Source: Fibrobacter sp.
Lineage (GTDB): Bacteria; Fibrobacterota; Fibrobacteria; Fibrobacterales; Fibrobacteraceae
Assembly (NCBI GenBank): GCA_031271785.1
Contig: JAISUZ010000106.1
Span: 1 to 36,877, forward strand
Length of the DNA stretch: 36,877 bases
Direction of reading: 5' to 3'
Shown here piece after piece: positions 30,003 through 36,617 of this stretch. The position numbers were made by a program, and so were the translations under genes. The stretch's first letter is position 1, and each line of letters starts with the position of its first letter. The notes below the pieces were generated by a model, which was not told where the DNA came from, searched no databases, and saw only the letters and a list, made by a program, of their open reading frames with translations.

Positions 30003-30267
30003 GGCGTGCCCCGGCCTTTACCTTTCGGCATTGCAAACCGAAGGCCGGGTCGGCGTGTCTCCGGGCTACCCTCCGGTCGGTGCTGCGCACTGCGCGCAAA
30101 GCGCGCACCCTCCGCCTGCCTCACGTGTCTTCGCGCGATTCCAACACTTTTTGCGCATCAATACAGTTCGCTCCGGCATAAAAAGTATTCTCAATGTGCG
30201 CCGCCACTTGGTTTCCAAGCCGGAGCGGCTTCCAGCCTAAAAATTTGTCCCACCAAGTGGCGGCGCA
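30003..30267 (+). repeat. Composite dispersed repeat, copy B
   Basis: It lies between tRNA-Arg and the TIR gene. 30059-30095 (37 nt) and 30109-30136 (28 nt) are identical to 36487-36523 and 36536-36563 in copy C, and most of the element is the reverse complement of copy A (20258-20617). The distal end holds a perfect 15-bp inverted repeat, TGCGCCGCCACTTGG (30197-30211) with its complement at 30253-30267, and a nested AAGCCG-GAG-CGGCTT hairpin. It contains short open frames with no domain support. Confidence 0.7.
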
Positions 30268-30561
30268 GATGAAGAAAGTCTTCCATGCCTGTTCGAGCTT
30301 GACAAATATACCCGAAGATCATGCCCTCAAGGGGGGAGCGGAAGACATGCCGCGCGTCCCGGCGACGGGTGAAGCCGAGAATGGACGCGCGATCAGCAGG
30401 GCTGAAGCGAGGGGGATCTCCCCCTTTACAAAAAAACAGGGATTCGTTTGCGGGGAATCGGTAATTCCATGCCCGAATAAATTAATTTGCGCGCGTTTTG
30501 TTGCGAATTCCCTCGATTTTTTCTATCTTTCCCAAATAGTTTTTAAAGATTTGGAACTTGC
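30268..30561. other. Non-coding stretch upstream of the TIR gene
   Basis: About 290 bases with no supported gene. The first half is GC-rich (including GGGGGATCTCCCCC near 30410-30424, a small palindrome), the last 80 bases are AT-rich and hold the predicted TIR promoter. Confidence 0.55.
30501..30529 (+). promoter_or_regulatory. Predicted promoter of the TIR-DHH unit
   Basis: TTGCGA (30501-30506), a 17-base spacer and TATCTT (30524-30529). Initiation near 30536 would leave a leader of about 26 nt before the ATG at 30562. The only ribosome-binding candidate is a weak TTGGAAC. The TATCTT box matches the one predicted for lysS. Confidence 0.45.
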
Positions 30562-31719
30562 ATGGCCGGCAAATTTGATATTTTCATCTCATATAGGCGC
30601 AAAGGCGGTTACGATACCGCGAAATTACTTTATGATAGACTTCGCCTGGATGGTTACTCCGTTTCTTTTGATATCGATACTTTGGAAAAGGGTAATTTCG
30701 ACGATGAACTTGAAAAGCGGGTTCATGATTGTAAAGATTTTATCCTGGTTTTGAGTCCGGGGGTGTTTGACCGGTTTTTTGATCCGAATTGCATTCCGGA
30801 AGATGACTGGGTGCGCCGTGAGATTTCCTGCGCGCTGCGATTGAATAAAAATATTGTTCCGCTCGCCCTTGACGGTTTTGCCTACCCAAGTCAAAGTCTG
30901 CCCGCCGATGTAAAAGATATTTTGCGTAAAAATGTGATCGATTTGAGTCCGAGGCATTTTGAGAGCGCTTATACCAATTTGAAAACCAAGTTTTTGCTTT
31001 CCAAGCAGAGTTTTGCAACCCGGCATAAAAAGAGCATTATCGCATTTGCGGCGGCGGCTGTTTTGGTTCTCGCGGCTTGCGCGTTTATGGCGATTTCCGC
31101 GATTTATGCTCAAAAAGATTTGGAGGCGAAAGAGGCCGAATTAAAAGCGCAGGAGTTGCAAGCGTCGGCGCAAAGAATAGTGGATTCGTTGCGGGTCGCC
31201 AAAGAGTCGGAGATTGCCCGCGCCACCGATTCGATTGCGCGTTACATTGATTCGGTGAAAAAAGCAAGCGCCGCGACAGCGAAACCGAGAACGGCGGGCA
31301 CCACGAACGTTACTCATGTTACCCATGTTACGAATGTGCAAGCGCCGCCGCCGCCGGTTCCGTCTTCATCCGGTAAAACGCTTCATTGGCGCAGCGGAAG
31401 CCGGGGCGCCGATCAAATTATTTTTGATAAAATCAAGTATGCCGGGATTGAAAAATCAAAATGTTCCGGCAATAACTTGCAGTTGACCGTCAATAAAGCT
31501 TCGTGTAAAGTGGCGAATGTGAAAGGGCAGGTTTCCTGCAATTGGTCTCCGAAATTAACGGTTTCCACCTGCGATAATCGTCCGGTGGCTTCGTTCGATT
31601 CTCAAAATATCAATACCGGTATTTTGGATAATGAAGAACTTGCCAAAAAATCTCTGGAAACGATGGCGAGACAAATTAATTTGACCGCGTGGGTTTCCGA
31701 TTTGCGAAAGCTTAAATAG
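30562..31719 (+). CDS. Membrane-anchored TIR-domain protein with Cys-containing ectodomain
   Basis: A 385-residue protein. Residues 1-145 are a bacterial TIR domain: KFDIFISYRRKGGYDTAKLLYDRL, FDIDTLEKGNFDDEL, DFILVLSPGVFD, and DDWVRREISCAL, in which E87 sits where TIR NADases have the catalytic glutamate. A positively charged RHKK precedes one transmembrane helix (about 157-181). A charged coiled-coil-like stretch (184-235), a TNVTHVTHVTNV run, a PPPP hinge and a C-terminal domain (about 270-385) with four cysteines (C301, C315, C326, C337) follow. The positive-inside rule puts the TIR in the cytoplasm and the cysteines outside. NADase activity, or use as scaffold only, cannot be decided. A DHH phosphoesterase gene follows after 8 bases. 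Confidence 0.85.
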   Translation: MAGKFDIFISYRRKGGYDTAKLLYDRLRLDGYSVSFDIDTLEKGNFDDELEKRVHDCKDFILVLSPGVFDRFFDPNCIPEDDWVRREISCALRLNKNIVPLALDGFAYPSQSLPADVKDILRKNVIDLSPRHFESAYTNLKTKFLLSKQSFATRHKKSIIAFAAAAVLVLAACAFMAISAIYAQKDLEAKEAELKAQELQASAQRIVDSLRVAKESEIARATDSIARYIDSVKKASAATAKPRTAGTTNVTHVTHVTNVQAPPPPVPSSSGKTLHWRSGSRGADQIIFDKIKYAGIEKSKCSGNNLQLTVNKASCKVANVKGQVSCNWSPKLTVSTCDNRPVASFDSQNINTGILDNEELAKKSLETMARQINLTAWVSDLRKLK

Positions 31720-31727
31720 AGAAAGTC

Positions 31728-33182
31728 ATGAAACTTTCGGATCTTTTGCCGTATCGAAAAATTATTTTGCAAACGCATAATATTCCCGATGCCGATGCCG
31801 TGTCTTCGGCTTTTGTGCTGCAAAAGTTTTTTGAAAAACAGGGGGCTTCGGCGCGCCTTGTTTACGGCGGTCCCGCCAAAATAACCAAACCCAGTTTGCT
31901 TATGTTTATAGAGGCGTTGAATATTGAGATCGAATACGTTTCCGAAATTCCGGCAGATACCGATTTGCTGATTACGGTGGATTGCCAATACGGGGCGGGG
32001 AATGTGCAAAAGTTTCCGTGTCCTGCTTTTGCGGTGATCGACCATCATCGTCCGGAAATAGTCGAAAACGAACTTTGTGAAATTAATCCGCATTTAGGGA
32101 GCTGCGCTACTTTGGTTTACAGCATGCTCTTAAAAGAGCATGCGGAAGATTTTATCAATCGGGAAAATATCAGAACCGCTTTGTATTACGGTCTTTTCAC
32201 CGATACCAACGGACTTTCGGAACTCAGGCACCCGCTGGACCGCGATTTGTCCGATGTGCCGTTCGACAGGCCTCTCCTGAAAAAATTAAAGAACGCGACC
32301 ATTACCATGCCCGAACTTTCCATTGTTTCGGGTGCGCTTGCCGATGTGAGCGTGGTTGAGAATATCGGTTTATTTAGAGCGGTTCCCTGTGATCCGAATA
32401 TTCTCGGTTTTTCAAGCGATATTGCCATGCAGGTCGATACTTTGGATGCCTGCATCTTATTTGCTCCCGCCGGTCCCGGAATTAAAATTTCGGTGAGAAG
32501 CTGTTCCCGTGAAATTATGGCGAACGAACTTGCTGCATTTTTGTGCGATGGGTTCGGCAGCGGCGGTGGAAATCTTGAAAAAGCGGGCGGCTTTTTTAAG
32601 AATACCGAAGAACATTTATTCAATAAACTTCGGGAATATATTACCGCGTTCGATAAAATTTATGCCGGCGTTACTCCGGTGGACTTTGGTTCCATGAAAC
32701 GGTACCGCAAGCTCCCGAATGAAGTGGGTTTTTGCGTGCTTACCGATTTGTTTCAAGCGGGCGCGAAGCTTACCGTGCGTACTCTGGAAGGCGATGTGGA
32801 TTTAACGGCAAGCGACGATATTTATATTATGATTGGAATCGAGGGTGAAATTTACCCGATTCTAAAAGAAAAATTTGAGAAGAATTATAAGGTGCTTGAT
32901 AAAAAATACGAGCTCGTTTCGGAGTACCCGCCTACAGTGATCGACCGGTACAACGGTGAAAAACATTCTATATTAAGTTATGCAAAAGTCTGCGTTCCTG
33001 TTTTTGAAAAAATCATTAAAGCCAAACAAATCGACAAGCGAACCAAAGTGTTCACTTATTGGGATACCGAGAAGTATTTTTCGGGAGTTCCGGGCGACTT
33101 TTTAGCCGCGAACGAAAATGATTTACAGGATTGCTGGATCGTAAATGAGCGTATTTTTTATAAAACGTATGAGTTAATCTAG
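31728..33182 (+). CDS. DHH-family phosphoesterase with duplicated C-terminal PGDYG-like module
   Basis: A 484-residue protein. The DHH domain has all metal motifs: HNIPDADA (H17, D21, D23), VDCQ (D85), DHHRPE (D105-H107) and GLFTDTNGL (D159). The DHHA1 substrate domain follows, with GSGGGNLEKAGGF (277-289), but the usual histidine of GGGH is asparagine (N282). Relatives hydrolyse nanoRNA, pAp or cyclic dinucleotides. Residues about 345-393 and 438-484 look like two copies of a small module (SDDIYI...GEIYPILKEKFEKNYKVL and PGDFLAANENDLQD...FYKTYEL) resembling the PGDYG family. It begins 8 bases after the TIR gene and is probably cotranscribed. Substrate unknown. Confidence 0.87.
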   Translation: MKLSDLLPYRKIILQTHNIPDADAVSSAFVLQKFFEKQGASARLVYGGPAKITKPSLLMFIEALNIEIEYVSEIPADTDLLITVDCQYGAGNVQKFPCPAFAVIDHHRPEIVENELCEINPHLGSCATLVYSMLLKEHAEDFINRENIRTALYYGLFTDTNGLSELRHPLDRDLSDVPFDRPLLKKLKNATITMPELSIVSGALADVSVVENIGLFRAVPCDPNILGFSSDIAMQVDTLDACILFAPAGPGIKISVRSCSREIMANELAAFLCDGFGSGGGNLEKAGGFFKNTEEHLFNKLREYITAFDKIYAGVTPVDFGSMKRYRKLPNEVGFCVLTDLFQAGAKLTVRTLEGDVDLTASDDIYIMIGIEGEIYPILKEKFEKNYKVLDKKYELVSEYPPTVIDRYNGEKHSILSYAKVCVPVFEKIIKAKQIDKRTKVFTYWDTEKYFSGVPGDFLAANENDLQDCWIVNERIFYKTYELI

Positions 33183-36453: not shown

Positions 36454-36617
36454 GGCGTGCCCCGCGCGGAGCGCGGGTCGGCGGGGCTCCGGGCTACCCT
36501 CCGGTCGGTGCTGCGCACTGCGCATCAATGCGCATCCTCCGCCTGCCTCACGTGTCTTCGCGCAATTCCAACGCTTTTTTGCGCATTAATTATAGTTCGC
36601 ATTTTTTATTTGTGCGA
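36454..36617 (+). repeat. Composite dispersed repeat, copy C
   Basis: It begins 8 bases after the FISUMP gene's stop. 37-nt (36487-36523) and 28-nt (36536-36563) stretches are identical to copy B. The front carries CCCGCGC-GGA-GCGCGGG, a perfect 7-bp hairpin. The tail (36594-36617) matches 348-371 with one mismatch in 24, linking this copy to the block at the window start. Confidence 0.7.

Follow-up and report, generated by a model that had tools for sequence, protein, structure and literature searches.

Two adjoining genes encode a membrane TIR protein and a DHH phosphoesterase

The window, a stretch of 36,877 nucleotides from Fibrobacter sp. (contig JAISUZ010000106.1, assembly GCA_031271785.1), is part of a 2.28 Mb genome that is 95.5% complete, and the closest named relatives of its DHH protein are found in 'Candidatus Fibrimonadaceae' genomes. 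Two genes lie next to each other on the forward strand. The first (30562..31719) encodes a membrane TIR protein of 385 aa with a TIR domain, one transmembrane (TM) helix, a coiled coil and an outer four-cysteine domain, and the second (31728..33182) encodes a protein of 484 aa composed of DHH, DHHA1 and two PGDYG-like domains. Both open reading frames, as well as the 8-base spacer from the TIR stop codon to the DHH ATG (AGAAAGTC, 31720..31727, forward strand), were confirmed in the sequence, in agreement with the original prediction. The promoter that the two genes had been predicted to share was not recovered. No sigma-70-like site is present from 30250 to 30562, the whole region contains 6 matches compared with 4.2 ± 2.3 in shuffled sequences, and neither promoter nor terminator matches in the region rose above the shuffles. 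In three related genomes the start and stop of the TIR and DHH genes overlap by 4 bases. Judged from the short spacing in the window and these overlaps elsewhere, the two genes are likely co-transcribed.

An intergenic repeat of approximately 110 nt occurs in two copies that are 91-94% identical (30039-30152 and 36467-36579). The former lies just 5' of the TIR gene, beside a 48-nt imperfect inverted repeat (30165-30299).

The TIR protein combines a SARM1-like TIR domain with a putative outer sensor

Residues 5-136 of the first protein (30574..30969, forward strand) form a SARM1-like TIR domain, as indicated by PF13676 (E 2e-13, residues 7-134), by PDB phmmer, in which human SARM1 was by far the best solved relative (TIR domain, E 1e-25, residues 5-136), and by Foldseek (41% identity to SARM1, TMt 0.87). 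Residue E87 (codon 30820-30822), proposed earlier as a site for mutation, aligns with the catalytic glutamate of SARM1, and together with W83 and the YRR motif it is invariant in 19 of the 19 aligned members of the TIR family. With the catalytic glutamate in the SARM1 position, the domain may cleave NAD.

The TIR domain is followed by a TM helix at about residues 157-180 (31030..31101, forward strand; segment also delimited as 159-177), recognized by hydropathy and contained in a single long helix (156-238) in the structure model. Positive charges are found on the TIR side of the TM segment, including the motif RHKKS just before the helix, which suggests that the N-terminal TIR domain is cytoplasmic. 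The outer, putatively periplasmic domain (residues 270-385; 31369..31716, forward strand) carries four invariant cysteines, not noted in the original prediction, at positions 301, 315, 326 and 337. This four-cysteine domain is also present in secreted proteins without a TIR domain and in LPP20-type lipoproteins, sometimes encoded by the next gene, supporting that the domain is located outside the cell and probably acts as a sensor.

The DHH protein carries a phosphodiesterase core and two PGDYG-like repeats

The first 300 residues of the second protein constitute a DHH-DHHA1 core, which TmPDE, NrnA, GdpP and DhhP resemble in both sequence and predicted fold. The DHH catalytic domain covers residues 11-155 (31758..32207, forward strand; PF01368, E 1e-12), and the metal ligands of motifs I-IV (H17, D21, D23, D85, D105-H106-H107 and D159) are invariant in 78 aligned rows. 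The DHHA1 substrate-binding domain (residues ~236-303; 32433..32636, forward strand), to which the profile match is weak, is marked by R257 and a GGGN motif in place of the GGGH found in 50 of the 78 rows. Owing to the weak inter-domain placement in the DHH model (pTM 0.47), global TM-scores are low, in contrast to strong Foldseek E-values.

The C-terminal 180 residues, overlooked in the original prediction, consist of two PGDYG-like repeats (~318-394 and ~398-484; 32679..33179, forward strand) and are mostly beta in the predicted model. This half matches phrog_419 (E 3e-8), a domain also present in phage proteins of unknown function. The match to PF14083 (PGDYG) is 12.7 bits in the window protein, under the Pfam cut-off of 27, and reaches 87.8 bits (E 7e-25), over the cut-off, in the relative from Desulfovibrio sp. 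OH1186. The PGDYG half is conserved across the DHH family and sets it apart from ordinary NrnA.

In an alternative reading, the DHH protein would have the ordinary role of a phosphodiesterase for c-di-AMP/pApA or pAp, and a TIR acting as a non-enzymatic docking domain would localize or regulate it at the membrane. The top structural matches (TmPDE, NrnA and GdpP) and the TM helix on the TIR protein are consistent with it, as is the gene content of the window genome, which has one gene for the c-di-AMP cyclase DAC and no DHH protein other than this one and RecJ. The alternative keeps weight in Fibrimonadaceae, which have no other stand-alone DHH enzyme and carry a DAC gene. Against it, the Zoogloeaceae genome G114 carries the pair and has no DAC match, and the catalytic glutamate is retained in 47 of 49 TIRs in the alignment of linked TIRs, window included. 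Moreover, a separate DHH protein of NrnA size is encoded in each of G113, G115, G116 and G120, and because such proteins coexist with it in Clostridia and Synergistaceae, the DHH-PGDYG protein is not the housekeeping copy in these groups. Docking to an ordinary phosphodiesterase is considered unlikely.

A human-gut scaffold (L236:4201-6423) encodes a DHH-PGDYG protein fused to a HAD-type domain, which looks like phosphoglycolate phosphatase by eye. A GdpP neighbour in this scaffold was also considered and dropped.

TIR genes recur beside the DHH gene in distant bacteria

The DHH gene is present as a single copy in 13 Fibrimonadaceae genomes, in one of which a single TAG stop interrupts it (L053:403-1857, genome G004). 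Members of the TIR family occur in several copies, as many as 8 matches being found in one genome. A TIR gene lies directly 5' of the DHH gene in 6 of the 12 genomes with readable flanks, and the other 6 have no adjoining TIR gene. With further copies located elsewhere, this indicates that the pairing is recurrent and not obligate. Most TIR paralogues are not beside the DHH gene, some of them preceding rplM, htpG, FKBP or TlpA-like genes, and the linked TIRs fall in three TIR subclades. These features are what would be seen if members of a multi-copy TIR family had landed by chance beside a housekeeping gene, with no functional link between the two.

Evidence against such coincidence comes from other bacteria. 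Scanning the DHH alignment against 84,980 species genomes yielded 80 loci, and TIR proteins are the commonest neighbour families of these loci. In a six-frame recount, a TIR gene lies within 300 bp of the DHH gene at 35 of the 80 loci, at 25 of them directly upstream on the same strand; an earlier count with overlap-filtered ORFs gave 32 of 77. About 56% of the DHH loci have no TIR alongside, and some c2-type neighbours are convergent with the DHH gene and hence do not share one operon with it. TIR genes account for 32 of 148 slots next to the DHH gene versus 1 of 438 at a distance of at least four genes. The linked loci, with unrelated TIR types, are distributed over at least seven phyla: Fibrobacterota, Bacillota, Synergistota, Thermodesulfobacteriota, Myxococcota, Pseudomonadota and Acidobacteriota. 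The neighbourhood search proposed in the original prediction thus recovered TIR-DHH co-occurrence with varied TIR receptors far beyond this genome, and the recurrence of TIR neighbours argues against a housekeeping nanoRNase that is flanked by unrelated genes elsewhere.

On the DHH tree, TIR linkage is scattered, with at least 17 changes of label on well-supported branches. Of 8 genomes with linkage that were checked, 5 contain no PF13676 TIR besides the linked one; some DHH carriers, G112 and G125 among them, have no detectable TIR_2. The cultivable Sporanaerobium hydrogeniformans likewise carries DHH without TIR_2. In an even sample of 200 Lachnospiraceae, a TIR gene was found within 300 bp at 13 of 33 DHH loci, and TIR genes are present in 24 of 34 DHH carriers versus 69 of 166 non-carriers (p 0.002, Fisher test, uncorrected for shared ancestry). 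The scatter of linkage on the tree and the single-TIR genomes make coincidence unlikely, even though the tests are not fully corrected for ancestry. The chance explanation is thus largely refuted and is regarded as highly improbable, and the TIR and DHH genes are very probably functionally coupled.

Relatives of the DHH protein were also searched for among mobile elements. Two full-length DHH matches were found in the 'phages' set, a separate collection, both on unverified human-gut scaffolds (L235 and L236). In L235 the pair is present with overlapping start and stop; given the pair and apparent branched-chain amino-acid (ilv) genes, this scaffold is probably bacterial. IMG/VR scanned with the DHH alignment gave 62 pattern matches and no relatives, and the plasmid scan gave partial NrnA-like matches only.

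A group of Lachnospiraceae DHH-PGDYG loci without TIR (L152, L166, L170, L180 and close relatives) is flanked by other genes, with a WYL-like regulator encoded upstream and a Ser/Thr kinase downstream of the DHH-PGDYG gene.

TIR partners share one plan with different outer domains

The TIR partners of the DHH family share the TIR-TM-outer plan, a TM helix being detected in 44 of 48, and their outer parts are unrelated to one another, including Ig/MBG-like, LRR, DUF6273, WD40, four-Cys and other domains. Within Fibrimonadaceae, a diverged TIR-TM-CT subfamily, the 'x' clade, was observed at L070 and L081-L086. In many cases the very next gene encodes a TlpA-like thioredoxin or a secreted version of the outer domain.

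The PGDYG half has a second genomic context. In six Lachnospiraceae genomes (L196-L201), a homologue of the C-terminal half that lacks the DHH part is encoded in cassettes together with a TIR protein and a class III nucleotide cyclase. The cyclase is of the receiver/class III type, and for three of these six Pfam confirmed the cyclase domain. Several of the cassettes also contain a GAF-domain gene (GAF-GGDEF by Pfam in L201), and in L196 the cyclase and the PGDYG half are fused in one protein. Even where no DHH domain is present, the PGDYG half is thus tied to TIR proteins and to cyclic-nucleotide enzymes.

Proposed role of the TIR-DHH pair

It is probable that the two proteins act jointly in a signalling system that has not been described. 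The most satisfactory explanation overall, which we hold with even confidence, is a membrane TIR receptor with a partner phosphodiesterase that would control a TIR-made nucleotide. The outer domain may sense something periplasmic or extracellular, and sensing would cluster the cytoplasmic TIR domains, as suggested by TIR biology. Once clustered, the domains might use E87 to split NAD or some other nucleotide and so generate a small nucleotide signal. The DHH-DHHA1 core, whose metal site is intact in sequence, could hydrolyse this signal or its linear product and thereby set a threshold or end the response, and the two PGDYG-like repeats may recognize the ligand or the TIR partner. A single DHH gene may serve several TIR receptors in each Fibrimonadaceae genome, often including an adjoining one. 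A pair of signal-maker and signal-remover was already put forward in the original prediction, and the DHH catalytic residues and the SARM1 glutamate in the TIR domain both fit it; the roles themselves are still presumptive, and the direction, in which the TIR makes and the DHH protein removes the signal, is tentative and falls slightly short of even confidence.

The opposite direction would resemble Thoeris, with a TIR-made signal binding the PGDYG repeats and switching on the DHH protein as an effector, which would degrade nucleotides or short RNA and stop growth. The order of a sensor-TIR gene followed by an enzyme gene is reminiscent of Thoeris, and the half made of PGDYG repeats could plausibly bind a ligand. 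Short RNA is a possible substrate too, since DHH enzymes such as NrnA are able to act on it (PMC9757072). Nevertheless, the DHH gene often occurs without a linked TIR and is conserved in one copy, which does not resemble the pattern of a dangerous effector, and the stand-alone DHH-DHHA1 relatives among the PDB matches have small nucleotides and dinucleotides as their main substrates. Activation of the DHH protein by the TIR signal is therefore judged unlikely.

Extending the receptor-phosphodiesterase reading to the whole family, we tentatively propose, with a little less than balanced confidence, a widespread unnamed signalling system built on single-pass TIR receptors with swappable sensors (LRR, Ig/MBG-like, DUF6273, WD40 and four-Cys). 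These receptors would share a DHH-DHHA1-PGDYG phosphodiesterase controlling the nucleotide messenger that the TIR domains make, and the system would be a bacterial counterpart of Toll-like receptors in layout. In bacteria, TIR proteins are known mostly from phage defence, where they are soluble and serve as sensors or effectors. If the proposal is true, bacteria would also use membrane TIRs with swappable outer domains for TIR signalling from outside the cell, and a defined enzyme for switching a TIR signal off would exist across at least seven phyla. Which TIR product is cleaved by this DHH family becomes a testable question.

Comparison with known systems

The TIR-DHH pair is undescribed in PADLOC, NCBIfam and the searched literature, an absence that is in itself no proof of novelty. 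As in Thoeris (ThsB TIR and ThsA), a TIR gene adjoins a second gene whose product presumably handles a TIR-made nucleotide; here, in contrast, the TIR protein is anchored in the membrane and bears an outer domain, and the partner is a DHH phosphodiesterase. No ThsA-type effector domain was found in the neighbour gene by Pfam, PADLOC and NCBIfam scans. The PADLOC match of ThsB to the window TIR is partial (E 4e-8), NCBIfam ThcB4 scores 37.4 bits against a cut-off of 220, and in PADLOC the TIR protein gave partial matches only and the DHH protein none.

The window TIR is ~40% identical to that of SARM1 and shares its catalytic glutamate, tryptophan and YRR motif, but the ARM and SAM domains of SARM1 are absent and a TM helix and an outer domain are present instead. 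A survey from 2020 reported that bacterial SARM1 homologues were not found (PMC7075850). Differing from Thoeris in partner and match scores and from SARM1 in domain composition, the pair is classified as a variant of TIR-based nucleotide signalling.

The DHH-DHHA1 core with all metal ligands is common to the window protein and the stand-alone enzymes NrnA, PDE2, TmPDE and DhhP; the window protein differs from them by ~180 extra residues comprising the two PGDYG-like repeats, by GGGN for GGGH and by its TIR neighbours. TIR domains and nucleotide phosphodiesterases also occur in the same types of conflict systems (eLife 52696, 70394); neither DHH nor PGDYG appears in the text of the former, nor DHH in that of the latter.

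With Toll-like receptors, the TIR protein shares the layout of a single-pass membrane protein with a cytoplasmic TIR domain and an outer sensor, and the relative from Desulfovibrio sp. OH1186 has outer LRRs. The order is reversed here, with the TIR domain N-terminal, the likeness of the outer domains is apparently one of layout, and the partner is a phosphodiesterase. In the Desulfovibrio strain, the gene for the TIR-TM-LRR protein overlaps the DHH-PGDYG gene (L172:6643-9905).
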